From: Halomonas citrativorans
GTDB lineage: Bacteria; Pseudomonadota; Gammaproteobacteria; Pseudomonadales; Halomonadaceae
NCBI RefSeq assembly: GCF_900163645.1
Contig: NZ_FUKM01000057.1
Coordinates: forward strand, 248,001 to 312,000
Length of the DNA stretch: 64,000 nucleotides
Direction of reading: 5' to 3'
Under the pieces are notes generated by a model. That model was given only the letters and a program-made list of their open reading frames with translations, was not told the origin of the DNA and searched no databases. The position numbers were made by a program, and so were the translations under genes. Shown one piece after another: positions 19,125-49,203 of this stretch (within the stretch, counting starts at the first letter, position 1; the number at the start of each line of letters is the position of its first letter).

Positions 19125-19134
19125 TACTGGCCAC

Positions 19135-19166: not shown

Positions 19167-19208
19167 AGCACGCTAACTCTCCACCTTGACCACCAAAGGA
19201 ACAACCCC

Positions 19209-20819: not shown

Positions 20820-20822
20820 CCC

Positions 20823-25844: not shown

Positions 25845-25880
25845 GTCGATCTCCATTTTTAAACACAGAGGAACTACACC

Positions 25881-25917
25881 GCTTCAATTGAGCGCCTGTT
25901 AAAAGGCGCATTGAAGC
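25881..25917 (-). other. Hairpin in the leader of the siderophore receptor mRNA
   Basis: GCTTCAAT...GCGCCT pairs with AGGCGC-ATTGAAGC, leaving a three-base bulge. It lies between the binding-protein gene and the receptor start. No T run follows on the minus strand. It may tune expression or mRNA stability of the receptor relative to the importer. An 8-bp repeat (TGCTTTAG twice) lies at 25942-25957. Confidence 0.4.
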
Positions 25918-25969
25918 AGTCGATGAAAGCGTTTTTTTAGGTGCTTTAGTGCTTTAGTGCTATGGTCTG

Positions 25970-28658: not shown

Positions 28659-29602
28659 CACTGTGCCCTCCTGACAATCAGGATCAGAAACAGCACGCCT
28701 CCGACACAAGCCGACGTTAAGCCGATGGGCACTTCAAAGGGATAGATCAGCAGGCGTCCCGCAATGTCGCAGACCAGCAGCAGTGTTGCCCCCGACAGTG
28801 CTACGGCGGGTAGGGTGCGAGCCAGGTTATCGCCGTAGTAGAGCGCTACCAGATTGGGAACCACTAATCCGACAAAGGGGATGGCGCCCACCGCGATGAC
28901 CGTGACCGAGACAGTAATGGCCACCAGCATCAGCCCAATGGCGGAGGTGACGAGATAGTTCACGCCTAAACTCGTCGCCATGTCTTCGCCCATGCCCAGC
29001 ACCGTGAAGCGATGAGCGTAGACGTAGGCGAGCACAACGACCGGCAGGATTAGGTAGATGATTTCGTAATGGCCCTGGACGATCTTTGAAAAATCTCCCA
29101 GCAGCCAGCCCTGCATGCTTTGCAGGATGTTATGGCGGTAGGCGTAGAACTCGGCTAGGGCGCTTAGCACGCCGCCGTACATCAAACCGATGACGGGAAC
29201 CAGTACCGTGTTGGTGAACTTGATGCGGCGAACGATAGCGATAAAGACAACATTCGCAGCGAAGCAGAAGAGCAGGGCTGCAAGCATTCGTGATCCAGCG
29301 CCAGCCGTAGGCATTAGAGACAGCGATACGAGAATGCCCAGTTTGGCGGCATCAAGCCCACCCGAGGTGGCGGGCTCCACGAACTTATTGCGCACGATAT
29401 GCTGCAAAATCACACCGCAAATCGCGAGGCCCACTCCGGTCAAGGACACCGTGATCAGGCGCGGCAGTCGGCTGGCCGTCAACGTCAACCAAGCATCATC
29501 TGACAGGGTGATAAGTTGGTACCCGCTTATCTGCCGCGCGCCTGTCAGTAATGACATCCCGCACAGCAATACAAACAGGAGAGGCAGATACACGCGCATC
29601 AC
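28658..29602 (-). CDS. Ferric-siderophore ABC transporter permease (FecCD family, first)
   Basis: A FecCD-type permease of 314 residues. Family motifs include RLPRLITVSLTGVGLAICGVI, ATSGGLDAAKLG, the coupling loop GEDMATSLGVNY and AIPFVGLVVPNL. It starts at 29602, overlapping the stop of the ABC half-transporter gene by four bases. That overlap ties the FecBCDE-like importer to the YbtPQ-like pair in one transcript. Confidence 0.9.
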   Translation of the reverse strand: MMRVYLPLLFVLLCGMSLLTGARQISGYQLITLSDDAWLTLTASRLPRLITVSLTGVGLAICGVILQHIVRNKFVEPATSGGLDAAKLGILVSLSLMPTAGAGSRMLAALLFCFAANVVFIAIVRRIKFTNTVLVPVIGLMYGGVLSALAEFYAYRHNILQSMQGWLLGDFSKIVQGHYEIIYLILPVVVLAYVYAHRFTVLGMGEDMATSLGVNYLVTSAIGLMLVAITVSVTVIAVGAIPFVGLVVPNLVALYYGDNLARTLPAVALSGATLLLVCDIAGRLLIYPFEVPIGLTSACVGGVLFLILIVRRAQ

Positions 29603-31359: not shown

Positions 31360-31361
31360 TT

Positions 31362-33164
31362 TCAGCACGCTGCCACCTTCGATTCCAGTGAGTTTGTTTT
31401 CTCTTCCAGTGCCCAAAGGCGAGCATAAAGGTCATTGCTGGCCAGTAGCTGGTCGTGATTGCCTTGCTCAGCAACCGTGCCGCCATCGAGTACCAGAATA
31501 TGGTCGGCGTGGATGATCGACTTTAGGTGATGCGAAATAATCACAAGCGTCCGCCCCCGGGTTAAACGCGACAGAGCCTGCTGGATGGCCAGCTCATTGC
31601 TGGCGTCAACCGCTGCTGTCGGCTCGTCCAGCACCAATAGAGGCGGATCAAGTAACATGGCGCGGGCAATACTGACGCGCTGTTGCTCGCCACCTGACAG
31701 TTGAATATCCTCGCCAACCATCGATCGATAGCCGTTAGGGAGTGCGGCGATACGTTCGTGAATATTCGCCGCGCGAGCGGCATCCTCGATTTCCTGTTGG
31801 CTGGCCGAAGGGCGGCCCAACGCAATGTTGTCTCGAATGCTGGCATGGATCAGACGCACGTCCTGCAGAACAAAACCAATCCGCTGGTAGAGCGTTGACA
31901 TCTCAAGATGGCGCAGATCCACCCCGCCTAACGTAATGCGCCCATGGGTGGGGTCAAAAAAGCGCAGCATCAGGCGTGCCAGGGTGGATTTGCCTGCCCC
32001 CGAAGGGCCAACAATCGCCGTAACGCTGCCAGGTGCAAGAGTAAAGTGCAGGTTCGATAGCCCGTTTTGGGCATTGTTATAGACGTAACTGACATTTTCA
32101 AAGCGAACTTCATGATCGTTGGGGAGCTGGCACTCACTGGAGGGGATTGATGGCAATACCGGCGTTTCAAGCAGTGCCATGACGCGTTGGGCGGCGCCAA
32201 CGGCACTGCCTAAGTCGTGCAGCAAGGTATGCAGCAGCAGTAACGGAGCACAGATACCGGGGGCTACTAGAATGAATGGCAACAGATCGACCGGTTCTGA
32301 CCAGCCGTTGGCGACGCAAAATATGCCAACCGTGAGCGCCAGTCCCAATATCGTCACCGTTGTCACCATCGCATGAACATGTGCCATAGAAGCGACCAGA
32401 GGGCGGGTAAATTGCTCAAATGCATGGGCAAAGCTATCCACTGCTGCTTGGTAGCCACGATAGGCTTGTCCGGTCGTACCGAAGGCCTTGACGACGGGAA
32501 TGCCGCAGACAAATTCATTAATGGCGTTATTCATGCGCTCAAGCTGGGCAATAAACTCACCCATATTGGCTTTGCTGGCTTGCATGAGTCGGCGCAGGAA
32601 AAGAAAGAAACCGGGAAGAGGCAGTAACGTAATAACGGCGATTTTCCAATCCAGCATGATCAGGTAGACCACCGAGATCAGTAAGGCGCCAAACGCGCGT
32701 CCTACCGCCGTGTAAAAGTGCGCGGTCAGGCTGTGCAGCGTCGCAATATCGTCTTGCATCGCCTGTTTTACGTCGCCGGATGCGCGGCTGGTAAACCAGC
32801 CAAGCGGTGCTTGGGACAAGCGTCGCATAACAGCCAAGCGTAGCTGGTAGGTGAGTTTGTTATCCGCCAGGTGCGCTACCAGCTCGCCGAGAAACATGCA
32901 CCCCATGCCGACAAAGAGGCTCACGATGCTGGCTGCTACCACCCAGCCGATTTCACGCATGCTGGCGGTTGATAACTCCCAGGCGGCGCCTGGATCAGAC
33001 ACAAGAATCTTGGCGATATGTGCCATACCGGCAAGCGGCACCATCGTTAATATCGTGCCGATGCCCGCCAGCATTGCCGCGGCAAAAAGCCGTGTGCGTA
33101 TAGGGGCCAACACTTGGCTGATGGGGCTCTTACCTTGGGATCTCGATGTATCGTGCGTGCTCAT
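31362..33164 (-). CDS. ABC half-transporter, fused permease/ATPase (YbtP-like)
   Basis: The partner half-transporter, 600 residues, first gene of the siderophore locus. The membrane domain covers residues about 20-320; the ATPase has Walker A GPSGAGKST, signature LSGGEQQRVSIARAM, Walker B LLVLDEPTAAVD and switch histidines in ISHHL. It stops two bases before the next gene starts. Its promoter lies in the divergent region shared with the TetR gene, which carries clear operator-like repeats, so the whole locus is probably under that regulator and perhaps iron control. Confidence 0.85.
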   Translation of the reverse strand: MSTHDTSRSQGKSPISQVLAPIRTRLFAAAMLAGIGTILTMVPLAGMAHIAKILVSDPGAAWELSTASMREIGWVVAASIVSLFVGMGCMFLGELVAHLADNKLTYQLRLAVMRRLSQAPLGWFTSRASGDVKQAMQDDIATLHSLTAHFYTAVGRAFGALLISVVYLIMLDWKIAVITLLPLPGFFLFLRRLMQASKANMGEFIAQLERMNNAINEFVCGIPVVKAFGTTGQAYRGYQAAVDSFAHAFEQFTRPLVASMAHVHAMVTTVTILGLALTVGIFCVANGWSEPVDLLPFILVAPGICAPLLLLHTLLHDLGSAVGAAQRVMALLETPVLPSIPSSECQLPNDHEVRFENVSYVYNNAQNGLSNLHFTLAPGSVTAIVGPSGAGKSTLARLMLRFFDPTHGRITLGGVDLRHLEMSTLYQRIGFVLQDVRLIHASIRDNIALGRPSASQQEIEDAARAANIHERIAALPNGYRSMVGEDIQLSGGEQQRVSIARAMLLDPPLLVLDEPTAAVDASNELAIQQALSRLTRGRTLVIISHHLKSIIHADHILVLDGGTVAEQGNHDQLLASNDLYARLWALEEKTNSLESKVAAC

Positions 33165-33255
33165 GAAGCGTTATGACTCGGCCATAGGGGATTATCGAAC
33201 CTGCATAGCAGTAGTTTGTAACGAGAATTAGTCGCGTTTAAATAGGCTAATAGAT

Positions 33256-33310
33256 AATTAGTTTCATGGCAATAAACTAATTAATATAATTGCATGCCAA
33301 TCAACTAATT
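33256..33310. promoter_or_regulatory. Operator-like repeats in the siderophore/TetR divergent promoter
   Basis: A perfect inverted repeat AATTAGTTT/AAACTAATT (33256-33264, 33274-33282) is followed by a direct repeat: CATGGCAATAAACTAATT (33265-33282) and CATGCCAATCAACTAATT (33293-33310) match at 16 of 18 bases, 28 bp apart. This is the expected kind of site for a TetR-family dimer. A Fur-like match at 33253 is weak. Confidence 0.55.
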
Positions 33311-33365
33311 GACCCTAAAGTGAGTGAGTGGCTAGATAAGGAACGTCAGCGATTAAGGATGCAAT

Positions 33366-33983
33366 ATGACCACGCAACAGCCAGTTAAAGCACGCGGGCG
33401 GCCGCCTACCATCACGCTTGAGCGTATTGCGAATGCGGGTATCGAAATCGGCCTACCCAACATCACCTTTGTCGGGGTGGCCAGCGCGCTAGGCATCAGC
33501 CATATGGCGCTTTATAAGCATGTGCCCAATTTAAAGGCGCTGAAATGCTTAGTGGCCGAAGAAATATTTCAACGTTGGAATATTCCACGAGCTTCCAATG
33601 ATGCGCCCGGGGAATTGAAAGAGTATCTATCCACTTTTGCCGCATCGATAAGCGAGTTTGTCAAAGCTCACCCAGGATTAACGCCCTATGTGATCCGTCG
33701 CTTGGCTGCCACTCAGCCCATGATTGAAAAAATTCGTGCACATCAAAACCATATTGCTGAGGTTTATGATATCTCCCAGGAGCAAGCTCGCTGGCTTCTG
33801 GCGACTATAGCTTTTCAATGCTTTTCCGTCGCCGATACGATTTATTCGGTAGTGGGGAAAGAGCCTGTCGAGGGGGCGAGCCGCGGCCTGGAGGAGGCCG
33901 AAATGGAGGCGGAATTAGAGGAAGGTATGCGAGCGCTTATTACTGGTGCGCTAGTAATACTGAACGAGCGCTCACGTGGATAG
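33366..33983 (+). CDS. TetR-family transcriptional regulator
   Basis: A 205-residue TetR-type regulator. The N-terminal helix-turn-helix covers residues about 18-62 (RIANAGIEIGLPNITFVGVASALGISHMALYKHV). The C-terminal ligand domain is not assignable to a known effector class; it has an acidic stretch EEAEMEAELEEG near the end. It is divergent from the siderophore locus, with repeated operator-like DNA between, so a role in controlling siderophore uptake is inferred. Confidence 0.85.
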   Translation: MTTQQPVKARGRPPTITLERIANAGIEIGLPNITFVGVASALGISHMALYKHVPNLKALKCLVAEEIFQRWNIPRASNDAPGELKEYLSTFAASISEFVKAHPGLTPYVIRRLAATQPMIEKIRAHQNHIAEVYDISQEQARWLLATIAFQCFSVADTIYSVVGKEPVEGASRGLEEAEMEAELEEGMRALITGALVILNERSRG

Positions 33984-34046
33984 GGCCTTTATAAAAGCGT
34001 GCGTCTTCGTCGTTGCAAGTGGCGCCCTGGTCTGGCGTTTAGCCTT

Positions 34047-34967
34047 TCAAAACAATGAAGGCGGCTCCATCGGCGCCTGCCGCGCCCGGCGGCGCTTCAG
34101 CATTTGGGTAATCAGCCCGTAGCGCGGCCCGCCCAAAAAGGCCAGTATCAGAAATACGCCGGTCATTACCGCCATCATGCCACCGATGGAGACGTTGAAA
34201 TGCACCGCGAGGAAATAGCCGGAAATGCTCGAGGCGATCGAGATCAGCGCGCCGAAAATGAACATCATCCACAGGCGGTCAGTCAGCAAATAGGCGGCGG
34301 AGGCGGGAACAATGGCAAAGGCGATGAACAGCACCGCCCCCACGGCGTCGAAGGCCGCCACGGCGGTGGAGCTGGTCAGCATCAAAAGTACATAGAACAG
34401 GATCGTCGGCATGAAGCCAAAGGTTTTGGCCAGCGCGGGATCGAAGGTGGCGAGCTTCAGCTCTTTATAGAAGAGCCCGATAAACGCGTAGTTGAGCAGC
34501 GTCATTACGCTCATCGAGACCAGCGCCTGGGGAATCGGCAGGCCGAAAAGCTCGACGGTATCCAGCCAGACAAACCCGATTTCACCCAACAGCACGGTGT
34601 GGGTGTCGATATGCACGTCGTGGGCGTAGATATTGAGTAGTAACACGCCAATGGAGAAGAGTGCTGGGAACACCAGTCCGATGGCGGCGTCCTGCTTCAC
34701 CCGCTTGGTATTGGCCAGCGCCTCGGTGAGAAATACTGTCAAAAGCCCGGTCAGCGCGGCGCCGATGAGCTGCACCGGCCCGCTCTGCTGCTTGGTCAGT
34801 ATCCAGACGATCACGATGCCGAACACGATCGAATGGCTGATGGCATCCGACAGCATGCTGTTGCCGCGCAGCACCAAAAACGTGCCCACCGCTGATGAGG
34901 CGATACCCACCATGGCGCCGACCAGAATGATGGGAAGCGCGGTACTGTTGAGAAGCTCTGCGATCAT
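34047..34967 (-). CDS. Metal ABC transporter permease (TroD/MntD-like)
   Basis: An ABC-3 family permease of 306 residues for divalent metal import. Typical motifs are SSAVGTFLVLRGNSMLSDAISHS near the N-terminus and DAVGAVLFIAFAIVPASAAYLL in the second half. It is the last gene of a four-gene operon and overlaps the other permease by four bases. Metal preference cannot be read from it; the binding protein suggests a TroA-type manganese/zinc/iron system. Confidence 0.88.
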   Translation of the reverse strand: MIAELLNSTALPIILVGAMVGIASSAVGTFLVLRGNSMLSDAISHSIVFGIVIVWILTKQQSGPVQLIGAALTGLLTVFLTEALANTKRVKQDAAIGLVFPALFSIGVLLLNIYAHDVHIDTHTVLLGEIGFVWLDTVELFGLPIPQALVSMSVMTLLNYAFIGLFYKELKLATFDPALAKTFGFMPTILFYVLLMLTSSTAVAAFDAVGAVLFIAFAIVPASAAYLLTDRLWMMFIFGALISIASSISGYFLAVHFNVSIGGMMAVMTGVFLILAFLGGPRYGLITQMLKRRRARQAPMEPPSLF

Positions 34968-36055
34968 GGCGCGACCTCCTCGAACGTGGCGACCACCTGG
35001 CGCGCTTTTGCCTGCCCTGTTGTCGTCAGCCCCCAGTCCGCTTCACCTTGTGAGCGGGTCAGGTAGCCTTGGCGTTTTAACAGGGCAAGGGTGAGCCGTG
35101 CGCTCAGCGATAAACGCCGTGATGCAGGCCGGGCCGGGTGTTTATATAGCGTGTAGAGAAGCTGGCGTTTTTGAAGCTCGGCTTTCTGGAGGTAGTGTTT
35201 CATGATGCCCCATAAAAGCCCGCGCCCTGGCGCCAGCGCCAGCGACAGCAGCACGATGGCCGTGGCGGTTAGTACGATCAGCGGGCCGGTAGCAAGCCCG
35301 CGCGACAGCGTGCTGATCGTCGCGCCGGAGACTCCGCTGACGATACCCACGCCCGCCGCGATGGCAAGCATGGTGCCCAGGTGGCGGCTCCACTGGCGCG
35401 CGGCCGCCGCCGGGGCAACGATCATCGCCGCCATCAAAATGACGCCGACCATCTGCAAGCCGACCACCACCGCCAGTGCGACCATGGCGGTCAGTGTCGC
35501 CTCGATGGCCGTGGCGGGCATGCCAAGCGTTCGGGCGTACTCGGCGTCGAACGTGACCAGCTTGGCCTGCTTCCAGAAGGCGGCGAGCAGCGAAAGCGTT
35601 ACCAGCGTCACGCCACCCATCACCCACAGATCCGAGCGCAGCGTGGCGGCGGCCTGGCCGAATAAAAAGGCCTCAAGCCCGCCCTGGGCGGCGTTGCTGG
35701 TGCCTTGAATGTAGGTGAGCAGCACGATACCAACGGCAAAGAAGAGGCTCAGGCAAACGCCTAGCCCCGCATCGGTTTTCAGGCGGCTTTTGCGGGTGAG
35801 CAGCAGCATGATCAGCGCGGCAAGAGAGCCGGTAGCAAGCGAGCCGATCATGATGCCGCCAATATCGCGGCTGCCGGTAATGATGAAGCTCAGGCATATT
35901 CCCGGAAGAGCCGCGTGGGAGATGGCGTCGCCCAGCAGGCTTTGACGGCGCAGCACCGCAAAGCAGCCCAAGGGGCCGCTGATCAGGCCCAGAAGCGAGG
36001 CGCCGATCACCACGTTTTGAAAGGTATAATCCGATAGAAGTTCGAGCCACTGCAT
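34964..36055 (-). CDS. Metal ABC transporter permease with C-terminal winged-helix-like extension (TroC/MntC-like)
   Basis: An ABC-3 permease of 363 residues. The membrane part covers residues about 1-290 (GPLGCFAVLRRQSLLGDAISH, GVILMAAMIVAPAAAARQW). Beyond it are some 70 soluble residues with helices and a strand-like end (LSARLTLALLKRQGYLT, WGLTTTGQAKARQVV) that look like a winged helix of the DtxR kind. Permeases without it are about 290 residues. The domain would face the cytoplasm. The gene follows the ATPase gene by three bases. Confidence 0.86.
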   Translation of the reverse strand: MQWLELLSDYTFQNVVIGASLLGLISGPLGCFAVLRRQSLLGDAISHAALPGICLSFIITGSRDIGGIMIGSLATGSLAALIMLLLTRKSRLKTDAGLGVCLSLFFAVGIVLLTYIQGTSNAAQGGLEAFLFGQAAATLRSDLWVMGGVTLVTLSLLAAFWKQAKLVTFDAEYARTLGMPATAIEATLTAMVALAVVVGLQMVGVILMAAMIVAPAAAARQWSRHLGTMLAIAAGVGIVSGVSGATISTLSRGLATGPLIVLTATAIVLLSLALAPGRGLLWGIMKHYLQKAELQKRQLLYTLYKHPARPASRRLSLSARLTLALLKRQGYLTRSQGEADWGLTTTGQAKARQVVATFEEVAP

Positions 36056-36058
36056 GGG

Positions 36059-36841
36059 TCAGGTCACTTTTGAGGCGGGAAACGTTAATGACTCGTGGTC
36101 ACCCAGCAGCGCGATCTGGCCGCCGTAGGCCTGGCGGAGGTTGTCGATCTTGAAAACGTCTTTGGCGTCGCCACTGGCAATCACGCGCACGTTCAGTAGC
36201 AATAGCCAGTCGAAGTAGGTACCGACAGTTTGCAGATCGTGGTGGACGACGATAAGCGTCTTTCCCGCATCACGCAGGCGGCGCAGTATATCGATGATCG
36301 CCCGTTCGGTGGTGGCATCGACCCCGGCCATGGGTTCGTCCAGAAAGTAAACGTCGGCCTGTTGCACCAGTGCGCGGGCCAGAAACACGCGTTGTTGCTG
36401 GCCGCCGGAAAGCTGGCTGATCTGGCGGTGGGCAAGCTCGCTCATGCTGACCATGTCGAGCGCGTCCATCGCCTCTTTACGTTCTCGGCGCCCGGGGCGC
36501 TTGAACCAGCCAAGGCGCCCGTAAAGGCCCATGGTCACCACATCGAGCGCGGTGGTGGGAAAGTCCCAATCCACGCTCGAGCGCTGGGGCACGTAGCCCA
36601 CTCGCTTGCGCTGGGCGGCATAAGGCTTGCCGTGCACCAGCACCTCGCCGGAAAGCGATGGCACCAGCCCTAAAAGGCTTTTGATCAGCGTGCTTTTGCC
36701 TGCGCCGTTGGGGCCGACAATTCCCGCCATCACGCCCGCCGGGATATCGAGATTGATATCCCAAAGCACGGGCTGGTTGTGATAGCTCACGGTCAAATTG
36801 TTGATGCTGAGAGCGGGCTCGGCACTTGCAGATGTTACCAT
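36059..36841 (-). CDS. Metal ABC transporter ATP-binding protein (TroB/MntB-like)
   Basis: A 260-residue ATPase for divalent metal import. Walker A is GPNGAGKST, the signature LSGGQQQRVFLARALV, Walker B VYFLDEPMAGVD and the switch VVHHDL. The YVPQRSSVDWDFP segment is characteristic of the manganese/zinc branch. It starts 15 bp after the binding-protein gene ends. Confidence 0.9.
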   Translation of the reverse strand: MVTSASAEPALSINNLTVSYHNQPVLWDINLDIPAGVMAGIVGPNGAGKSTLIKSLLGLVPSLSGEVLVHGKPYAAQRKRVGYVPQRSSVDWDFPTTALDVVTMGLYGRLGWFKRPGRRERKEAMDALDMVSMSELAHRQISQLSGGQQQRVFLARALVQQADVYFLDEPMAGVDATTERAIIDILRRLRDAGKTLIVVHHDLQTVGTYFDWLLLLNVRVIASGDAKDVFKIDNLRQAYGGQIALLGDHESLTFPASKVT

Positions 36842-36856
36842 CGAGAGTATGCCCTT

Positions 36857-37831
36857 TTATCCCTGTTGGTCGAGCTGCCACTCGCTTGCCCAGTCGTTGA
36901 GCTCATCGGGCAGTGGGGAAAGTGTGCCGCCGAGTGCGTTAACGATATGCTGGGTATTACGGTAGATCATACCCATATAGGTGCCGTCGACGGTACCGTC
37001 ATCGCCCATGGCGTCGGAATAAAGCTCGCCGCCAACCACAACGTCATGGCCACGCTGCTTGGCCGCGTCGATCACCGCCTGGACGGTGCGCGGATTGATG
37101 GTGCTTTCAACGAACACCGCCGGTACGTCGCGCTCTACCACACTCGTCGCCATGTTGCGGATATCGGCAATGCCGGTTTCGGTTTCGGTGCTGATGCCTT
37201 GAATACCTTCAACGTCGATATCGTAGGCGCGCCCATAGTAGCTAAACGCATCGTGGGCGGTCACCAGCACGCGCTGACTCTCGGGAATGGTCGCGATACT
37301 CTCCTTGACCCACTTGTGGAGCGCCAACAGTTCGGTCTGGTATCGTTCGGTGTTGGCCTCAATAGTATCCGCGCAGTCGGGGCGCGCTTCAATAAAGGTA
37401 TCGCTTAGCGTCGGCAGCGTTTGCGCCCAAAGCGAAACATCCATCCACAGGTGCGGATCGATGCCGTAGATATCCTGCGCGGTAATCAGCGATGAAGGGT
37501 CGATCGAAGAGGGCGCGACAGCAAGCGTCGGGGTGCGCGAAGAGAAATTTTCCAGCACCGAACCCAGCTGGCCTTCCAGGGCGTAGCCCGAGTAAAGAAT
37601 CTGTTCGGCGCCGCGCAACAGCGAAACATCGCTGGCGCTGGCCTGGAAAAGATGCGGGTCGATCCCGGGGCCCATCATGGCCTGGACGCTAACGCATTCG
37701 CCGCCTACCTCCTGTGCCACATCGGCAATCATGCCAATGGTTGCCACCACGTTGAGGGGCGTTTCATCAGCCGCTGCCAAGGTACTGAAAGGCAGCATTC
37801 CCAATAGAATCACAGCATGTTTTGTTGCCAT
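36857..37831 (-). CDS. Metal ABC transporter substrate-binding protein (TroA-like)
   Basis: A periplasmic cluster A-I metal-binding protein of 324 residues with a signal peptide ending near STLAAA-DE. The four ligand positions are visible: His in GIDPHLFQ, His in GIDPHLWMD, His in VTAHDAFSYYG, and Asp in LYSDAMG. The third ligand as His with Asp fourth matches TroA rather than Mn-specific PsaA (Glu) or the His-loop ZnuA. It could carry manganese, zinc or iron. GGAGC lies seven bases before its ATG. It leads the operon. Confidence 0.88.
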   Translation of the reverse strand: MATKHAVILLGMLPFSTLAAADETPLNVVATIGMIADVAQEVGGECVSVQAMMGPGIDPHLFQASASDVSLLRGAEQILYSGYALEGQLGSVLENFSSRTPTLAVAPSSIDPSSLITAQDIYGIDPHLWMDVSLWAQTLPTLSDTFIEARPDCADTIEANTERYQTELLALHKWVKESIATIPESQRVLVTAHDAFSYYGRAYDIDVEGIQGISTETETGIADIRNMATSVVERDVPAVFVESTINPRTVQAVIDAAKQRGHDVVVGGELYSDAMGDDGTVDGTYMGMIYRNTQHIVNALGGTLSPLPDELNDWASEWQLDQQG

Positions 37832-38229
37832 TATTAAGCTCCAGACTCGACATGAGGTAGATAGTAGACGAAGCAGTGTTACTCCGTGTAATCATTTTGC
37901 GCTGTGGAAACAAGTATAGCCTCGGCTAAGTTTGTGGCGCAAATAATTTAATGTCAAGCGGATAAACGTGCTGAGGTAGACTGAAATAGGCATGAGTTTA
38001 TGAGGCAATAAGCGCAAATGCGCTATTAATGTATCGCTTTAGTTGGCCAAGGCATCAACGGGTCTTGCGCTGGCATCGTTCGATACTTGAAGGCATACCG
38101 ATAGTGGCTATTCTGTGGCGCGTGTGAGTAGCGGGAAAGATAGAGCGAGAGGCGTAAATTGAGATTTAGATAAACCTGAGCTTCTGGCCCCAAGGGGGCC
38201 AGAAAGAGGGAGTGATAGAAACTGAGGTG
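37832..38229. other. 398-bp intergenic region, no gene seen
   Basis: The region separates two minus-strand operons. It should hold the promoter of the metal transporter near 37840-37930. I see an imperfect dyad AATAAGCGC-AAAT-GCGCTATT near 38008-38028 and the hairpin listed separately. No convincing open frame or metal-regulator box was identified by eye. Confidence 0.5.
38184..38202 (-). terminator. Hairpin after the PepSY gene
   Basis: A perfect 8-bp stem, CTGGCCCC and GGGGCCAG, with a three-base loop, about 28 bp beyond the PepSY gene's stop. No T run follows on the minus strand, so terminator function is likely but not certain. Confidence 0.5.
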
Positions 38230-39600
38230 TTACCTTGGCTGGTTAACCAGCCTCCGCTCCTGGAGCGGGCGCACAATCAGCCAATCAAGCAGCAGCATGA
38301 CGATCAACGACGCGCCTACCAGCGGGAAAATCAATCCGCCTATCGCCAGAATGGCAATCAGACCCCGGAAAACGCGTTTGTCTGCCGGTAGTGGCGGTAC
38401 GCCCATTGCGCGTGAGGGGCGGCGCTTCCACCACATTACTGCGGCCGATACCGCCAGCAGGATAATCGCCACGCACACGGTCAAAAAGAGCAGTTGGTTG
38501 GCCAGACCAAACTGCTGGCCCATATGCACGTTGATACCAAATTCCAACCAGCGACCCAGGGGCCCGTAATCGGAGTAGCTCATGTCGATCAAGCGCTCGC
38601 CGCTGTACTGATCAAGATGCACCACGCGCTGTTGGCTAAGGTCATTAGGATAGACTGATCCGGTGTACACGCCGGTCTCTGTGGTGGGCAGGCTGACCGC
38701 ATAGCCATGATGCAATCCCAGCTCATCGAAGATGGCGACAGCGCCGTCAAGGCCAATGCTCGTTGCCTGGCCTGGTCCCTGTGTGGATTCTGGAATTTGT
38801 GCCTGTTCGAGTGACCAGTTTGTCGGGCTTTGCGCGTTTAAACGCGCTTCCGACATGGGCACTTCAACGCGCACACCAGAGGGGTAGCCGAAATTGTTAC
38901 CGTTAGCCCACTGATTAACCTGCGCGCCCCACACGCCCGACCAAGGCATTCCGGTGATCGCCAGAAAGACGATAAACCCACCGACAAAAATACCCAGCAC
39001 GGCATGCAGATCACGCCAGAACACGCGGCTTTTTGGCTTGCCGCGCACGCTAATCACGCCGCCTTTGCCTTTACGCCGTGGCCACCAGAGGTAAATGCCG
39101 GTGAGCACTAGCAGGGTTGCCCAGCCGCCGGCTATTTCAATCAGTTTGCGCGCTGTAGGTCCAAAGTATTTCAAACTGTGCAGATAGCGAACGGTCCACA
39201 TCACCGTGCCGCGGTCATCCAGCGCCCCCAGCACATTGGCAGTATACGGATTGACGTAAACGGCTAACCGCTCGCCCGAGGCAGTATTCACTGTGATCTC
39301 CGCCGAGCTTTTCGGCGTGGCGGGGTCGGTGAATTTTACGGCAGTGCCAGGGTGAGCCGTAAGGGCTGCGCTTACCAGCGTAGAGGGAGGGAGCGTCGCC
39401 TCTTGAACGGCTACGCGCTTCACATCAGCGTGTATGAGTGCATCCAGTTCGTCCTTGAAAAGATAAAGGCCCCCAGTAATTGCCAGGGTGATCATGAACG
39501 GCAGAACCAAAAGGCCGGCGTAAAAGTGCCAGCGCCAAACGGCGCGATACAGGTCGAAGGTCTTGCGTTTACCTTCTTGTGGGGGTGACGTGGTCGACAT
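38230..39600 (-). CDS. PepSY-associated membrane protein
   Basis: A 456-residue protein with about four helices and PepSY-type periplasmic segments. It opens with LYRAVWRWHFYAGLLVLPFMI, a family hallmark with a conserved histidine, and has a second HxxxG-type region (RYLHSLKYFGPTARKLIEIAGGW). Such proteins are thought to reduce or process metals taken up by TonB receptors. The ATG at 39600 has GGAGAG upstream. It lies 86 bp after the OprC-like copper receptor gene, and I infer that it handles copper or iron in the inner membrane. Confidence 0.83.
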   Translation of the reverse strand: MSTTSPPQEGKRKTFDLYRAVWRWHFYAGLLVLPFMITLAITGGLYLFKDELDALIHADVKRVAVQEATLPPSTLVSAALTAHPGTAVKFTDPATPKSSAEITVNTASGERLAVYVNPYTANVLGALDDRGTVMWTVRYLHSLKYFGPTARKLIEIAGGWATLLVLTGIYLWWPRRKGKGGVISVRGKPKSRVFWRDLHAVLGIFVGGFIVFLAITGMPWSGVWGAQVNQWANGNNFGYPSGVRVEVPMSEARLNAQSPTNWSLEQAQIPESTQGPGQATSIGLDGAVAIFDELGLHHGYAVSLPTTETGVYTGSVYPNDLSQQRVVHLDQYSGERLIDMSYSDYGPLGRWLEFGINVHMGQQFGLANQLLFLTVCVAIILLAVSAAVMWWKRRPSRAMGVPPLPADKRVFRGLIAILAIGGLIFPLVGASLIVMLLLDWLIVRPLQERRLVNQPR

Positions 39601-39685
39601 GAAGTCTCTCCAGACCACCAGGCATCTAGCCTGGTGGTTTTAAGCGGTAAGGGTAAACAGGTGCTCTACTGAGCACCTGAATGAA

Positions 39686-41857
39686 TCAGAAGCTGAAGTC
39701 GGCCCGTGCCCACACCATGCGGCCAGGCTCATTAATGCCGCGATCCAAATCAGCGGGATAGCCAAAGGCTGCATTACCCGCCAGATTCAAGTGTTCGGTG
39801 TAGGTGGTATCGAAAACGTTATCCACCCCCACACTTAGCGTTAGGTGGTTGCTTGCTTGATAGGCACCGTTAAGCGAGAACACCCCGAAGCCTGACGACG
39901 ATTCCAGATCCTGGCCGACGACATTGCCTTTTTCGAGCGCAATACGGTTTTGTGCCGCAACACCACGCCATAGGCCACCCACAGAGTAGTCATCGTGTGC
40001 ATAGGTCAGGCCGACCTTGGCTTCCAGCGGTGGGATCTGTGGTAATGCCTCATCGTCGTTGGCATTTCGCCCCCAGGCATAGGCCAGCGAGGCATTGCTT
40101 ACCCAGTTGTCGGTTAGTTGATAGCTAGCGCCCACTTCGGCACCCGCAATCTGAGCATCAATGTTATCGATCTGAGTACCGCCCATGCCCGCGGTGTTGT
40201 AATCAAACAAGATGAAATCGTTAACGTATCCTGCATACCCGGACACCCATGCGCTTAAGCGCTGGTCGTTATACTGCGCGCCTATATCCAACTGGGTGGT
40301 TTTTTCGGGTTGAACACCGTCAAAGGCATTCAAACTACCGGCCGGGCCTGCCTGACTAGAGCTCAATTCCCAGTAATCGGGAAAGCGCTCCACATGCCCG
40401 ACCCCGGCATACCAGGTGACCGGTGCTGAGGCTAAATCCTGCTCATAGCGGATAAAAGCGCTGGGCAGAGTGTCGCGGCGGGTGAGGCCTGTGGTAGCTG
40501 TGTCCAGGCTTTCGTCACTGACGCGGTAGCGGTCTACGCGGGCGCCGCCAATAAGACGGTCACGTTCATCGATAAAACGGGTGACTTCGCTGAAGGCGCC
40601 AAACTGGGTCTGCTCGTAGTCGGGCTGCCAGTGTTCGCCATCCAGATTGCGATGTACCTGATGCTCGACATCGACACCGGCCGTCCACGTGGTGTTTTCC
40701 CACTCCCACGTTGATGCGACGCGCGCGCTGCGGGTGCGACGGTCTAGCCGCATGGCCATGCCGTCACTCATGTCCATACCGCCATCCATATCCATGCCGC
40801 TGCCCATGTCCATGCCGCCGCCCATGTCCATGCCACCACCCATGTCCATGCCGCTGCCCATGTCCATGCCACCACCCATGTCCATGCTGCCCGGTGAGCG
40901 CAGCGTGAAGTTATCCATAATATGGTCGGCATAGGCATAGTTGGCCTGCATTTCCAGACGTTTCCAGTGTTCACCTAAATTCTCGCGCTGAAAACGGATG
41001 CCCACGGTTTCGCGCAGAAATTTGCTGCCATCCATACCTCGCCCGGCATAGCGCGCTTCGCCGTTTCCTCGGCCTGCGGTGACTTCAAGCCAGGTATCGT
41101 TGTCGGGTGTCCATCCAAGCGCTATGTCACCGTTCCACTTATCCCATAACGAGGGCACGGCGTTGCCATCGCCATCCTGATAGTCATTAGCTTCGGATTG
41201 ATTGCCGGTAATGCGCAGGTAGCCGTCTTTATTGCCTAAAGCGGCATCAATGCGGCGATCAAAGCGCCCATAGGTACCCAGCATGACGCTGCCATCCACT
41301 CGCACACCGGCTTCATCGAACTCCTCCGGGCCGCGGTCAAAGCGCACCGTTGCCGCTGAAGCGCCGGGGCCCCACAGAACGGACTGCGGCCCTTTGGTGA
41401 CGGTGAGGCTGTCGTAATTTTCAGGTGAGATATAAGACGTAGGCGCATCCATTCTTGCCGGGCAGGCGCCTAGCATTTGGCTGCCATTGGTCAGCACGCG
41501 AAGACGTGAGCCAAACATGCCACGGAACACCGGATCACCGTTGGTGCCACCGTTACGAATGGCAGAGAACCCGGGGATGGTCTGAAGGTAGTCGGCGCCG
41601 TCGCTGGCAGGGGCCGGTTGCCGCGGTATACGCGGGTCGGTTTCCACCGTGAGCGGTGAGCTTAGCGGTACAGCGGTCACGACCATCGTGTTTAACGCAT
41701 GATGATGCTCGTGGTGAGCGGCAGGCGCCTGTGCCCATACGCCTTGAGCAACAACGCTCGATGCGGCAGCGACGCTTAATGTCAGTACGTGTCGTTGAAA
41801 ACGGTTTTTTAAGCGGGCAGGCGTAACGACGCCATGCCCAATAGTTAGATGCGGCAT
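39686..41857 (-). CDS. oprC: TonB-dependent copper receptor (OprC-like) with Met-rich repeat
   Basis: An outer-membrane receptor of 723 residues related to OprC, which imports copper. After a signal peptide (VVAQGVWAQ) a His-rich AAHHEHHHA segment leads to the plug (FRGMFGSRLRVLTNG, LTVTKGPQSVLWGPGASA). The copper-binding CxxxM motif of OprC is present as CPARM. A barrel loop at about residues 325-365 holds seven to eight MDM units separated by glycines, and this loop is unusual. AAGGGA lies six bases before the ATG. The DUF2946 and PepSY neighbours support a copper role. Confidence 0.88.
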   Translation of the reverse strand: MPHLTIGHGVVTPARLKNRFQRHVLTLSVAAASSVVAQGVWAQAPAAHHEHHHALNTMVVTAVPLSSPLTVETDPRIPRQPAPASDGADYLQTIPGFSAIRNGGTNGDPVFRGMFGSRLRVLTNGSQMLGACPARMDAPTSYISPENYDSLTVTKGPQSVLWGPGASAATVRFDRGPEEFDEAGVRVDGSVMLGTYGRFDRRIDAALGNKDGYLRITGNQSEANDYQDGDGNAVPSLWDKWNGDIALGWTPDNDTWLEVTAGRGNGEARYAGRGMDGSKFLRETVGIRFQRENLGEHWKRLEMQANYAYADHIMDNFTLRSPGSMDMGGGMDMGSGMDMGGGMDMGGGMDMGSGMDMDGGMDMSDGMAMRLDRRTRSARVASTWEWENTTWTAGVDVEHQVHRNLDGEHWQPDYEQTQFGAFSEVTRFIDERDRLIGGARVDRYRVSDESLDTATTGLTRRDTLPSAFIRYEQDLASAPVTWYAGVGHVERFPDYWELSSSQAGPAGSLNAFDGVQPEKTTQLDIGAQYNDQRLSAWVSGYAGYVNDFILFDYNTAGMGGTQIDNIDAQIAGAEVGASYQLTDNWVSNASLAYAWGRNANDDEALPQIPPLEAKVGLTYAHDDYSVGGLWRGVAAQNRIALEKGNVVGQDLESSSGFGVFSLNGAYQASNHLTLSVGVDNVFDTTYTEHLNLAGNAAFGYPADLDRGINEPGRMVWARADFSF
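40765..40890. repeat. In-frame DNA repeat coding for the MDMGGG loop of the copper receptor
   Basis: Near-identical 18-bp units of the form ATGTCCATGCC[A/G]CC[A/G]CC(C) repeat about seven times. Each codes for MDMG plus two small residues on the minus strand. The length is a multiple of three per unit, so slippage would change loop length without breaking the frame. Confidence 0.85.
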
Positions 41858-41932
41858 GATGATCCCTTTTTTTGGTGTAGACAGCCGCCAGCCAGAAGCA
41901 AACTTCAGGCTAAAAAGGCTGACGATGTGGCG

Positions 41933-42373
41933 TTATACGATCCGAAAAAAGGGCGGGGCGCGCGTTAGCGCGTGGGGGTAGTTATCACAGGACTTTATAG
42001 CCTGTGTCGGTTGCGTCAGCAGCTGGTCATGCGTAATAAACGCTTGCAAGCTGATCGGAGGGAGAGAGGTATGCGCCGTTGGAAACTGTTGCCAGATGGC
42101 ACAGTAACCACATTGGTGGAACCAGTTGAATATCGGTTCTACTTCTTCAGCATGGCCCGCATGATGATGGTGGCTTGCTTGAGGGGCAGTATGTTGATGA
42201 TGACCGCCGCCTTGATGGCTAGAGTGATGACTAGCTTCGTGATGCGCGTGATGTTGCCCATCGGACTGATACTGTGAAATCAGCGGCCCAACTAACAGCA
42301 GCTGCATCGCCACAAACGCCATACAAAGCGCAATGCGATACCAGAGCTTGTTTGCTGAGCATTGTAACTGCAC
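41933..42373 (-). CDS. DUF2946 protein, His-rich, next to the copper receptor
   Basis: A small secreted or membrane-anchored protein with an N-terminal hydrophobic segment (LCMAFVAMQLLLVGPL), a long His-rich stretch (HHAHHEASHHSSH and more) and a CGYC pair in the second half, as in the DUF2946 family that accompanies copper genes. The start is uncertain: the frame is open to a TTG at 42484, but a hairpin (GTGTGG/CCACAC) lies there and no ribosome site is seen. I use the GTG at 42373 with AAGG upstream. It precedes the OprC-like gene by 75 bp. A periplasmic copper-binding role is inferred. Confidence 0.7.
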   Translation of the reverse strand: MQLQCSANKLWYRIALCMAFVAMQLLLVGPLISQYQSDGQHHAHHEASHHSSHQGGGHHQHTAPQASHHHHAGHAEEVEPIFNWFHQCGYCAIWQQFPTAHTSLPPISLQAFITHDQLLTQPTQAIKSCDNYPHALTRAPPFFRIV

Positions 42374-42619
42374 GAAGCCATCTACCTTGGTGGGCAACAG
42401 ACAAGCTGTTGACGGAGGATGGCCCAATAGTATCGGAAAGTTCCCAAATAAGAAGTGTTGGGCGTGTGGTCTTTTGCCACACAAGGGGCGGTTAACTACT
42501 TGTTATTTTTGGTGCGGCCGACCCTTTTAATGATCTTTTTTGGTGCAAAAAGCCGTTAGTGCTGATGGGTTATGACGGCTAAAACTTTGCAGCGATAGTA
42601 AAAGTCCACTTTTCCCCAT

Positions 42620-42638
42620 TTTGGCGCATTCCTTGCAT
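42620..42638 (+). promoter_or_regulatory. Sigma-54 promoter candidate for the urease operon
   Basis: TTGGCGCATTCCTTGCA (42621-42637) matches the RpoN consensus TTGGCACR-N4-TTGCA at all but one fixed position, with GG at 42623-42624 and GC at 42635-42636. Transcription would begin near 42648, so ureD must start downstream of that. A weaker GG-N10-GC match lies at 42577-42590. I found no good NtrC pair upstream. Confidence 0.65.
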
Positions 42639-42680
42639 TTGAAAGGCTATGACCTATTCAAAAGGATGCGACTGTCTTCC

Positions 42681-43565
42681 ATGACCTTGCGCGAACTCGC
42701 CCCACCGCTTGCGGGCTCCGGCCACCGCTTTGACCAGGAACGCCACTGGGCGGCCTCACTGGCGCTGCGTTTTGCCAAGCGCGATGGCGCCACGCGGTTA
42801 ATCCAGGCACGCCACCAAGGGCCACTTCGGGTCCAGCGGCCGTTTTATCCTGAAGGCAGCCAGGAGGCGTGCCATATCTACGTACTGCACCCACCCGGCG
42901 GATTGGTCAGCGGCGACGCGCTCACCATCAAGGCTCACGTCGAGCAGGGCGCACATGCCCTGTTGACCACCCCGGCGGCGAATAAGCTTTATAAGGCCGA
43001 TAGCCAAGGCGTGGCCTGGAGCCAGCGCACTGAACTTGAGGTCGCCGATGGCGCAACGCTTGAGTGGCTACCTCAGGAAACCATTGCCTTTGATGGCTCT
43101 AAAGGCGAACAGCGTACCCATATTGATCTTCACGGCAGTGCTCGCTGTTTAGGCTGGGAAGTCATGGCCTTGGGCCGCCCGGCGAGCGAGTTGCCATACT
43201 TATCAGGACGCATTGAGCAGTATTTTCGTTTGACGCTGGATGGCAAGCCGCTGTGGCTAGAACGCCAGCCGTTAGACCCGTTACACCCGCGCTTTATGGG
43301 GCGCTGGGGGCAGGGCGGCGCTACGGTGCAGGCCACGCTTTGGGCGGTGGGAATGAGTGATGCGCCAGCGGCGATTGAGGAGCTGCGTAATGCCCTGCCG
43401 GATAACCCACGCTGGGCGGTAACGGTGCGCCAGGACGTTTTATTGCTGCGCTATCTGGGTGACTCACGAAATGAAGCCTGGGCGCTGTGCGAACAGGCCT
43501 GGCAATTGCTGCGCCCGCGCTGGATTGAGCGCGAGGCCCATATTCCACGTATTTGGTTAACTTAA
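42681..43565 (+). CDS. ureD: Urease accessory protein UreD
   Basis: A 294-residue UreD/UreH chaperone that scaffolds nickel delivery to apo-urease with UreF and UreG. Family segments include QGPLRVQRPFYPEG, IYVLHPPGGLVSGD and EWLPQETIAFDG. Start choice: the TTG at 42621 lies inside the predicted promoter; ATG codons at 42666 and 42681 remain. AAAAGG directly abuts the first, so I use the second, without strong conviction. It leads ureDABCEFG. Confidence 0.9.
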   Translation: MTLRELAPPLAGSGHRFDQERHWAASLALRFAKRDGATRLIQARHQGPLRVQRPFYPEGSQEACHIYVLHPPGGLVSGDALTIKAHVEQGAHALLTTPAANKLYKADSQGVAWSQRTELEVADGATLEWLPQETIAFDGSKGEQRTHIDLHGSARCLGWEVMALGRPASELPYLSGRIEQYFRLTLDGKPLWLERQPLDPLHPRFMGRWGQGGATVQATLWAVGMSDAPAAIEELRNALPDNPRWAVTVRQDVLLLRYLGDSRNEAWALCEQAWQLLRPRWIEREAHIPRIWLT

Positions 43566-43675
43566 TCGATTCTGATGGAGGCGCCCTATGGAATTAACCC
43601 CAAGAGATAAAGACAAGCTGCTGCTGTTTTCCGCCGCCCAGCTTGCCGAGCGGCGCAAAGCGCGAGGGTTGAAGC

Positions 43676-44529
43676 TTAGGCTTTGTACGAAAAGTTGGCT
43701 CGCAAGCAACGCTCTATGCAGGCTACGCATACCATCGCTCTGAAACTGCTCGCTAATTTTTCGTAGCGCGTTGCAAATCGACGTAACTCTTTAAGCCATC
43801 CAAAGCAGCGTTCTACCGCGTTTCTCTGGCGGTATCTGTGCTGATCAAAACGCCTCGGCAAACCAGGGCGTGTCTTGCGATGCATTTGACGTTGCGCAAT
43901 AACGGGTTTTATACCGTGCCTGTCACAGTAACGGCGCAGTTCATCACTGTCATATCCTTTATCAGCGACCACGTAGCGGCTACGTTTGCGAGGCCTTCCA
44001 ACACGGCCTGGTAGATAAACACTCTCCAGCGTCGAGATGAAATGTCGAGAATCAGCCTGCTGTCCTGGAGACAGGGTAAATGCCAGCGGCCAACCATGGG
44101 AATCACATACCAGGTGGATTTTTGTCGTTAAACCACCACGACTACGCCCCAATGCGTGATCTACCGGTTCTTCTGAGCCCCCTTTTTGCCGCCTCCTGCG
44201 GCAGCGCGGGTGGCACGTATCGAGGTCGAATCAATCATCCACGTATCCAGATCCATCAGTCCATCTTCACGCAGCCTGAGCTGTAAGCGAGAAAGGATAG
44301 CTTCAAACGTGCCATCATCCCGCCATTTTCGAAAGCGCTCATAGGCAGTTGACCAGGGACCATACCGCTCGGGTAGATCTCGCCATTTGGCACCAGAACA
44401 GAGCACCCAGAAAATACCATTGAGGACCTGCCGGTCATCCCGCCGGGGCCTGCCCATCACCTGAGTTGGCGACACAATATCTGTAATCTGCGCCCAGTTC
44501 TCATTGGATATCTCGTACCGGCCAACCAT
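43676..44529 (-). CDS. IS5-family transposase made by programmed -1 frameshift
   Basis: Two frames together encode one DDE transposase. The upstream frame (44529-44161, 122 residues) has the N-terminal DUF4096-type domain ([21 protein letters not shown]) and the first catalytic Asp (MIDSTSIRA). The downstream frame has [12 protein letters not shown], the second Asp ([10 protein letters not shown]) and a late Glu in [12 protein letters not shown]. They join by a -1 shift at five A then five G on the minus strand (44187-44178), giving [21 protein letters not shown]. The stop codon TAA lies at 43678-43676, outside the element, in target DNA. Confidence 0.88.
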
Positions 44530-44596
44530 AATTCATTTCCCCCTATGCTTCTATTGCATGGGAAAACTTAGCAGATATCACTTTTCGTACAAAACC
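43679..44596. mobile_element. IS5-family insertion sequence (IS427-like group), 918 bp
   Basis: The element begins GG and ends CC. Its terminal inverted repeats, GG(C/T)TTTGTACGAAAAGT, match at 16 of 17 bases. The target duplication is TA (43677-43678 and 44597-44598). It carries a two-frame DDE transposase on the minus strand with an A5G5 slippery run. These traits fit the IS427-like branch of IS5. Its transposase points against the urease genes. Confidence 0.9.
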
Positions 44597-44813
44597 TAAC
44601 TATCCCGAAGCGGTCGCGCTGATCAGTTTCGAGATTATCGAAGGTGCTCGGGACGGTCGCAGTGTGGCGGATTTGATGAGCTACGGGCGCGAGATTCTGA
44701 GCCGTGATGACGTGATGGAAGGCGTGGCCGAGATGGTCGACGAAGTCCAGGTCGAAGCCACTTTTCCGGATGGTACCAAGCTCGTGACGGTTCACACGCC
44801 TATTGTGTGAGGG

Positions 44814-44890: not shown

Positions 44891-45207
44891 ATGATTCCCG
44901 GTGAGTATCAGTTAAAAGAAGATGATATTGAGCTATGCGTGGGGCGTGAGCGCATCACGGTGGACGTGGCGAACACCGGTGACCGGCCGATTCAGCTCGG
45001 CTCCCACTACCACTTTGCTGAGGCCAATCCCGCGCTGGTGTTTGATCGCGACAAGACCCGCGGTTTTCGCCTCGATGTGGCCGCAGGCACAGCAATCCGC
45101 TTTGAACCTGGCCAGACCCGTGAAGTCACGCTGATTCCGTTTGTGGGTAAGCGAGAGATCTACGGCTTTCGTGGCGAGGTGATGGGACCGCTGGACGGAG
45201 ATAAACA

Positions 45208-45211
<4 letters not shown>
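44891..45211 (+). CDS. ureB: Urease beta subunit UreB
   Basis: A complete 106-residue structural subunit of urease. It starts [16 protein letters not shown] and contains the family segments [18 protein letters not shown] and [27 protein letters not shown] lies before the ATG. It overlaps ureC by four bases. The gene is intact, but its complex lacks a functional gamma subunit because of the insertion upstream, which may also be polar on it. Confidence 0.95.
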
Positions 45212-46920
<1,709 letters not shown>

Positions 46921-47280: not shown

Positions 47281-47321
47281 ATTGGAAAGGTTCAATGTAT
47301 TGGGCGATTAAGAGGTTAATG

Positions 47322-47847
<526 letters not shown>

Positions 47848-47858
<11 letters not shown>

Positions 47859-48558
47859 ATCCGCAGCGTTGGGCAGCCAGCCTGATCTAGCCCTGCTCGG
47901 GCTGATGCAGCTAGTCAGCCCGGCACTGCCCATCGGGGCCTTTGCGTTTTCTCAAGGGCTGGAAAGTGCCTTTGAACTTGGCTGGGTTCACGATGAGCAG
48001 ACGTTGGCCGAGTGGCTTTCCGGCGTGCTGGAAGATGGCCTGACCCGCTGTGAACTACCGGTAATTGTCCGCTTATATACGGCGTTTACGCAGCACGACA
48101 GCGCGGCGATTGCCCAGTGGGATGGTTGGCTGAGTGCCACGCGGGAAACCGCCGAGCTTGCCGCTGAAGACAGTCGCTTGGGAGCCTCTCTCAAGCGGCT
48201 GTTGGGTAGCCTTGGCCTGCTACCCAGTGAGGGCTTACTACCGTCCTTGTTACCGGTTCAGCCGGGCTATGTCACGCTGTTTGCGTTTACCGCCCATGCG
48301 CGAGGCGTAAGCATTCGTCAGGCGCTGATCGGGTTTGCCTGGGCATGGCTTGAAAACCAGCTGGCGGTGGCCTGTAAAGCGCTACCTCTTGGGCATACGG
48401 CCGCTCAGCGGATTATCGAACAGCTGCGATCGCCGCTGGTTAGCGCGGTAGATGAAGCATTAACGCTCGACGATCACGACCTTGGCCCCATATTGCCGGG
48501 GCTGGCGCTAGCCAGTGCCCTACACGAAACTCAATATTCACGCCTATTTAGAAGTTAG
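47848..48558 (+). CDS. ureF: Urease accessory protein UreF
   Basis: A 236-residue UreF protein, part of the UreD-UreF-UreG activation complex that gates nickel insertion. Family segments are LALLGLMQLVSPALPIGAFAFSQGLE and the C-terminal LPILPGLALASALHE-type region. I chose the ATG at 47848 (MPTESAALG), overlapping the ureE end; the much longer open frame upstream is only the ureE gene in another frame. Confidence 0.92.
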
Positions 48559-48570: not shown

Positions 48571-49203
48571 ATGACTCACTGTTTACGTATTGGTGTGGGC
48601 GGCCCCGTTGGTTCGGGTAAAACGGCGCTACTCAAGCAGCTCTGTCTGGCGCTGCGCGACTATTACGATATCGCGGTGGTGACGAACGATATTTATACCC
48701 GCGAAGACGCTGACTTTCTGCTTAAGCATGACGCCTTGGCCGCTGATCGCATTCTGGGCGTCGAAACCGGGGGGTGTCCGCATACGGCGATTCGTGAAGA
48801 CGCCTCGATGAACCTGGCGGCTATCGATGAATTACAGGCGCGCCATCCTAAGCTTGAGCTGGTATTGGTAGAGTCTGGGGGAGATAACCTTTCTGCGACG
48901 TTTAGTCCCGAGCTTTCTGACCTCACGCTTTATGTGATTGATGTCTCGGCGGGAGACAAAATTCCGCGTAAGGGTGGGCCGGGGATTACCAAGTCGGATC
49001 TACTAATTATCAACAAGATCGATATCGCCGAGCAGGTGCACGCGTCGTTAGAGGTAATGGAGCGTGATTCAAAGAAAATGCGCGGCGAGCGGCCCTTTGT
49101 ATTTACCAACCTTTACGATGGCGTAGGGCTTGAAGAGATTGTTCGCTTTATTCTTGATAAAGGAATGCTGGATGAGCGGCGCCCTCAGGCAGCGCTGGCG
49201 TAG
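48571..49203 (+). CDS. ureG: Urease accessory GTPase UreG
   Basis: A 210-residue SIMIBI-class GTPase that drives nickel transfer into urease. The P-loop is [12 protein letters not shown], followed by [13 protein letters not shown], the metal-binding CPH motif ([15 protein letters not shown]), [15 protein letters not shown] and the guanine-specifying NKID. It is complete and is the last gene of the urease cluster. Confidence 0.96.

Follow-up and report, generated by a model that had tools for sequence, protein, structure and literature searches.

A composite urea locus in a Vreelandella genome in which the urease gene ureA is interrupted by an IS5-family insertion sequence

The window, the 64,000-nucleotide stretch of DNA analysed here (from genome G000 in a set holding one genome per species), carries genes for two urea-degrading routes together with one urea importer (Table 1). 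A GntR-family regulator, a urea carboxylase gene (uca) and an allophanate hydrolase gene (atzF) lie next to urtABCDE, which is followed, across a metal-uptake island, by the urease cluster ureDABCEFG. We place the host in Vreelandella (Halomonas group), as an environmental halophile, because its UreC is closest, within the named collection, to those of Vreelandella zhanjiangensis (99%) and V. nigrificans (98%).

Table 1. Positions of the urea-related features and the inserted element, in window coordinates
Feature	Position	Strand	Description
GntR-family regulator of the urea amidolyase block	11182..11955	-	GntR and FCD domains; adjoins uca or atzF in relatives
uca, urea carboxylase	11945..15577	-	TIGR02712, 1890.8 bits (cut-off 1303.85); Asn at K. 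lactis position 1330
atzF, allophanate hydrolase	15592..17454	-	TIGR02713, 818.6 bits (cut-off 511.05)
urtABCDE, urea ABC importer	17790..23511	+	TIGR03407, TIGR03409, TIGR03408, TIGR03411, TIGR03410, all above cut-off
Metal-uptake island, ~19 kb, urtE-ureD interval	23619..42484	.	Absent here in G079 and G057, present in G012
ureD	42621..43565	+	PF01774, 185 bits
ureA, 5' part	43588..43678	+	30 codons and first base of codon 31; PF00547 positions 1-32
TA target-site duplication, left copy	43677..43678	+	
IS5-family insertion sequence, 918 bp	43679..44596	-	Transposase on minus strand
Transposase frame 2, DDE half	43676..44152	-	NF033580 positions 119-257, 152.8 bits; DDE_Tnp_1; frame change at A5G5
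Transposase frame 1, N-terminal half	44161..44529	-	NF033580 positions 2-114, 127.8 bits; DUF4096
TA target-site duplication, right copy	44597..44598	+	
ureA, 3' part	44599..44810	+	End of codon 31 to stop; PF00547 positions 29-99; full-codon frame from 44601
ureB	44891..45211	+	NF009682, 167 bits
ureC	45208..46920	+	TIGR01792, 984 bits
ureE	47295..47858	+	NF009751, 157 bits
ORF containing ureF	47563..48558	+	PF01730, 128 bits; UreF domain residues 142-288; putative start
ureG	48571..49203	+	TIGR00101, 331 bits

From its start codon the ureA frame is kept for 30 codons and is then interrupted by a 918-bp element, on the far side of which the TA dinucleotide at the left border recurs and the downstream portion of ureA is in frame again, ending in a stop codon at 44808-44810. 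The original prediction of an IS5-family element, 918 bp long and flanked by a duplicated TA, that divides ureA after codon 30 is therefore exact at the level of sequence; its proposal that excision would restore 100 codons agrees with the register of the 3' part and with the intact UreA of the relative G012, which is 100 aa long. The terminal inverted repeats of the element are imperfect, matching at 16 of 18 positions, and its two minus-strand transposase frames correspond to the two halves of NCBIfam NF033580, whose cut-off of 110 is exceeded by each. The DDE transposase, the short TA duplication and the terminal repeats all fit the IS5 family, to which the element belongs. The transposase frames overlap at an A5G5 run, where a programmed frameshift may join them, and the first-half ORF is 123-133 aa long in six of the seven related copies examined. 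A two-frame layout of this sort is typical of the IS427 group.

The copy in ureA is the only full copy of the element in the assembly, and parts of related elements are found at six contig ends. The same IS, identical over 918/918 bp and with TA on both sides, occurs in a Vreelandella species (G016, locus L140, G016:C10:23966-24888) whose ureC is just 85% identical to that of the window and whose own ureA is whole. Among plasmid records, 45 match the element and none exceeds 90% identity, the 12 listed matches lying at 65-67%, so that these records reveal no source for the element. In the relatives G012 and G079 the ureA site is empty, and the two ureA pieces of the window are identical to G012 at 90/90 and 209/209 bases. 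Because the ureA pieces equal those of G012, the IS equals the G016 copy over its entire length and no other full copy is present, both the arrival of the IS and its insertion in ureA are recent, as originally proposed.

A search of the genome for another ureA, suggested with the original prediction as a check, found none: in 65 contigs, rated 100% complete, the urease-gamma profile matches solely as the two split pieces. The 5' frame runs for 51 codons before it ends, 30 of them native, and the 3' frame contains no ATG, GTG or TTG before residue 53 and none in frame upstream before a stop. Rescue of UreA as a split protein was considered and is unlikely, the first usual start in the 3' piece falling at residue 53. 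The remaining ure genes look intact, in agreement with the original prediction. Relative to G012, ureD, ureB, ureF and ureG show zero stop changes and zero gaps (ureG aligned over 620 of 633 bases), and the gaps in ureC and ureE, which were compared at base level, amount to 3 and 12 bases, both multiples of three. With ureB and ureC whole and ureA split, the genome lacks an intact three-subunit urease gene set.

The ureA-ureB gap (44812-44885) is filled with short repeats that are variants of the word 'ctcctcac', and near this gap the divergence between G000 and G012 is higher than across most of the block. A match to Rfam RF02514 (5' ureB sRNA; 45369-45650, minus strand, 95.7 bits) lies antisense to the start of ureC and probably arises because the coding sequence is conserved, an actual antisense RNA being less likely.

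The second route and its importer were originally described as intact, and this description holds: Uca, AtzF and all five UrtABCDE proteins score above curated cut-offs. The listed uca ORF reaches 15790 and its TIGR02712 match starts at residue 73; the match is full-length and includes biotin and carboxyltransferase domains, which fits a urea carboxylase (EC 6.3.4.6). The atzF product also contains the AH_C domain and has the features of an allophanate hydrolase. Compared with the relative G026, 178 codons of uca differ silently and 34 with a change of amino acid, the corresponding figures for atzF being 51 and 17, and both genes accordingly look maintained. Guanidine carboxylases are usually accompanied by a guanidine riboswitch, and none was found within the 64-kb window at Rfam gathering scores. 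Asp or Asn at K. lactis position 1330 is reported to separate guanidine from urea carboxylases (PMC12186494, PMC11410670), and Asn778 of Uca aligns with Asn1330 of the K. lactis enzyme (5i8i). Guanidine carboxylase as an identity for uca was ruled out on the Asn residue and the lack of a riboswitch match, and the second route reads as urea-type, not guanidine-type.

Across the family, 57 of 275 genomes have a strong match to the carboxylase of the window (E up to 1e-150). Among the best 30 of these 57 matches, the loci for which residues were called, Asn is found in all 12 loci at 61% identity or more and Asp in all 18 at 53-55%, the remaining matches, at 51-54% identity, lying outside the calls. 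The order sample divides in the same manner, with Asn in 25/25 loci at 63% or more and Asp in the 3/3 lower loci read.

Gene order in relatives shows each module on its own. In G079 and G057, a sensor/regulator and tct genes are followed by urtABCDE and then ureDABCEFG, with no uca and no metal island between, whereas in the Vreelandella genome G026 they are followed by gntR-uca-atzF, urtABCDE, 0.9 kb and fdhD, with no ure genes; no ureA was found in the G026 genome. The urtE-fdhD gap of G026 retains a 114-bp match to the stretch that lies immediately past ureG in the window. The locus described here contains both modules together with the island, which separates urtE from ureD. Sequence identity switches along it: 11.0-17.8 kb is 95.1% identical to G026; the urt region (17.8-22.4 kb) is 93.1% identical to G026 compared with 85.4-85.6% to G012 and G079; 23.5-42.0 kb is 99.9% identical to G012 (19 mismatches in 18,489 aligned bases, 23512-42000); 45.3-48.4 kb is 99.55% identical to G012, a urease-bearing species, divergence being higher in patches near 42-43 and 45.0-45.2 kb; and the outer flanks of the window are ~82% identical to G012. 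From this succession of a G026-like block and a G012-like block between ~82% flanks, the locus is seen to be a mosaic whose two blocks have passed between species, most simply acquired or exchanged by homologous recombination, in either direction, with borders at the importer and its neighbours. The island itself looks like a very recent between-species transfer. Its protein families comprise TonB siderophore and copper receptors and FecCD-type and Mn/Zn-type ABC transporters; a nickel role for it was considered and rejected, as the scanned proteins fall in siderophore, Mn/Zn-type and copper families and none in a nickel family.

Full-length carboxylases from four Marinobacter genomes are 82-85% identical to that of the window, and those of Halomonadaceae outside the genus 61-64%. 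The uca block faces away from urtA in the window and in the Marinobacter loci compared for orientation; it is co-directional with urtA in G085, G093, G094, G202, G209, G216, G217, G198, G199, G429 and G635. Since carboxylase identity and block orientation both agree with Marinobacter, the comparison suggests that the Vreelandella uca module derives from a Marinobacter-like source.

In related genomes the two routes occur mostly as alternatives. Twelve genomes of the family have a urea-type carboxylase, and ureA is absent from 10 of them, split in the strain studied here and intact in one (G085). With G000 excluded, and a broken carboxylase match in G058 left outside the classes, ureA is intact in 1/11 urea-type genomes versus 208/263 others (p=2.9e-6). 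Within the genus, where ureA is whole in 73 of 82 genomes, it is found in 0/2 urea-type genomes versus 73/79 others (p=0.0086). In genus g5 (ten genomes, G087-G096) the corresponding counts are 0/2 versus 8/8 (p=0.022), and here the exchange shares one location: both G093 and G094 can be aligned with the urease-bearing G091 on either side, relative to which a 16-bp gap replaces 6.5 kb of ure in G093 and uca-atzF has been gained ahead of urtA. An order sample, drawn evenly as 390 genomes, gives ureA in 3/25 urea-type genomes (G365, G429 and G635) versus 199/364 others (p=3.4e-5), genomes outside the matches listed being counted as without a match and the listed matches summing to the tally. Five partial hits at 56-57% identity, four in genomes with ureA (G459, G439, G366 and G393) and one without (G332), are counted among the others; when all five are taken as urea-type, the counts become 7/30 versus 195/359 (p=0.0011). 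Because the sampled genomes cluster by family, p-values of this kind overstate the evidence.

UrtA was found in 101 of 124 Marinobacter genomes, and the loci of 67 were read, being the best-scoring 60 by UrtA and 7 others. After four loci cut by contig ends (G601, G705, G713 and G720) had been set aside, 63 were informative. Of these, uca alone is present in 19 and ure with no intact uca in 38; both routes are intact in 5 (G648, G653, G670, G753 and G365), and ure lies beside a frameshifted uca in one (G675), counts that for most genomes describe the urt locus only. Chance pairing would give ~17 loci with both intact, compared with the 5 observed. No locus has neither route, a result due in part to the sampling, which required presence of the importer. 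We also compared the labels on a Urt protein tree of 84 rows, 78 of them labelled (the 63 loci and 15 Halomonadaceae; the strain studied here is unlabelled). The tree was built by a quick method and contains some long branches, and urt itself may have moved with uca. On it, none of 10 independent pairs differing in uca on well-supported branches differs the same way in ure, and on average 7.1 differ the opposite way (median p 0.016, range 0.008-0.063, over 200 random pairings). Its well-supported branches require the ure label to change at least 10 times.

Remnants mark several of these loci. Beside urtE, 4 of the 19 uca-only loci (G677, G752, G735 and G682) retain either a fragment of ureG or a copy of it that carries a stop or frameshift, and atzF is retained in 13 of the 38 ure-only loci, in which what is left of uca includes a gene with an internal deletion (G568) and a 47-residue remnant (G293). 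Such remnants show that loss has run in both directions, of uca and of ure. In ten of these 13 loci (including L261, L265, L296, L298 and L313) gntR and atzF are just 26-69 bp apart, uca is missing and atzF is apparently whole, which may reflect clean loss of uca, a uca that was never gained or a separate use of atzF. Urease can also decay for other reasons, since two ure-only loci have ure clusters that look damaged without any uca: G697 (L299), which lacks ureD, ureE and ureF and has a shortened ureG, and G688 (L280), which has three internal stops in ureC in an assembly rated 6% contaminated. Nor is co-residence lethal or always brief, as intact pairs occur in G085 and in 5/63 Marinobacter loci, and uca together with ureA in G429 and G635.

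Urease requires nickel and no ATP, and the amidolyase route requires ATP and biotin; the Urt importer is common to both. We consider it probable that the strain is a snapshot of a redundant, composite and mosaic urea locus in which the IS has cut urease and left the ATP-dependent route alone, and that one of the two routes is usually lost from such loci. Without full-length UreA the urease complex would not form and urease would be off, and urea would then be split by the ATP-dependent route alone. As the two routes would be equivalent in function and fed by one importer, the redundant partner would be free to be lost, and carriage of both would usually be short-lived. The most suitable reading of the IS in ureA is thus that it resolves, once more, a composite urea locus with redundant routes, with nickel scarcity a possible cause of the urease loss. 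The shared importer, the mosaic of two transfers and the recurrent retention of one route in relatives go beyond the original prediction. A stronger version, to which we give tentative and somewhat doubtful standing, would make the urea locus of these marine and halophilic gammaproteobacteria a two-state exchange system, having a common importer with interchangeable flanking modules passed between species by recombination through the importer and its neighbours; composites would be short-lived because carriage of both routes would be selected against under shifting supplies of nickel, biotin and energy, and the IS would be one step caught in the act.

The insertion might instead be random and unselected, perhaps acquired during laboratory growth, with its nearness to uca a coincidence. 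In favour of such an event, IS knock-outs of urease are known elsewhere, 14.1% of 9,755 K. pneumoniae genomes carrying IS5075 in ureC (PMC8269217); a single insertion was seen in a set of one genome per species; and most genomes of the genus (73/82) have a whole ureA. We nevertheless regard a random insertion as unlikely, because a urea-type carboxylase goes with a lack of urease in the genus, in g5, in the order sample and in Marinobacter, so that the strain falls where urease loss is expected. The original prediction had further allowed that the loss is reversible. In such a switch the strain would toggle between routes as precise exit of the IS restores urease. The duplication and reading frame would permit a precise empty site like those of G012 and G079, and the transposase halves look complete; however, nothing in the assembly shows excision, since it contains neither a product of excision nor a family of sites nor another full copy, and the empty sites of relatives are most simply ancestral. 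Precise excision with a duplication of 2 bp is moreover rare, and we judge a reversible switch to be very improbable.

Two further accounts would remove the redundancy or the interruption altogether. If the second route served guanidine rather than urea, it would be unable to replace urease, and ~75% of annotated urea carboxylase genes are indeed predicted to be guanidine carboxylases (PMC12186494). Uca has Asn and not Asp at the specificity position, however, the Asp type forms a separate class at 51-55% identity, no guanidine riboswitch was matched in the window at gathering scores and the uca block adjoins urtABCDE, all of which make a guanidine route highly improbable. An assembly error or misjoin at the IS might be suspected in a draft of 65 contigs with similar IS ends at contig ends. 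Yet the flanks form one gene, in register and bordered by a duplicated TA, the assembly contains the full IS sequence just once, and an identical element with its TA duplication occurs at another place in G016, so that we consider a misjoin extremely improbable.

Insertional inactivation of urease, the urease/amidolyase dichotomy and, in one Ectopseudomonas strain, a composite locus are already known. In K. pneumoniae, IS5075 in ureC disrupts a structural urease gene and renders strains urease-negative (PMC8269217). The window shares with that case an IS in a structural urease gene; the K. pneumoniae element, as described there, has a specific target in ureC and spreads with other mobile elements, whereas here a TA-duplicating IS5-family element lies in ureA beside an alternative urea route. 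A dichotomy between urease and amidolyase, with a nickel-saving argument, has been set out for fungi, and 'a certain degree of dichotomy' for bacteria, of which 7 among 31 having either route possess all three genes (PMC3073912). The pattern of one route or the other, held loosely in bacteria, is common to both studies; the dichotomy in the available text of that report lies between genomes and pools urea and guanidine carboxylases, whereas the modules here flank one importer and are lost in both directions. The composite atzF-uca / gntR / urtABCDE / ureDABC locus of Ectopseudomonas guguanensis G3 (PMC13296017) resembles ours in that both modules adjoin one urt operon, and differs in that it concerns one strain that keeps both modules, with ureEFG elsewhere and, in the portion available, no comparison of losses. 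Of nine cyanobacterial genomes that carry uc together with ah, four have no urease genes (PMC6737895); the accessible part of that report describes no shared-locus exchange and does not separate substrate types. Urea utilisation by either route has also been used as one profile pointing to Urt (PMC3098086). No report of repeated exchange of urea routes at one importer locus was found in the open-access literature searched.

The knock-out itself is ordinary, and its interest is raised by the setting, in which relatives repeatedly keep one module of two and the present strain is met shortly after the interruption of urease. As a source of nitrogen, urea is important in marine and salty waters, and the two enzymes that split it differ in cost, nickel for one and ATP with biotin for the other. 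A locus that repeatedly swaps routes behind the same importer, and that is found with pairs intact, with pairs half lost and with a fresh IS knock-out, would offer a natural series for measuring the cost of each route, and annotating urease from ureC alone, or a urea carboxylase without the Asn/Asp test, would mispredict how such a strain uses urea.
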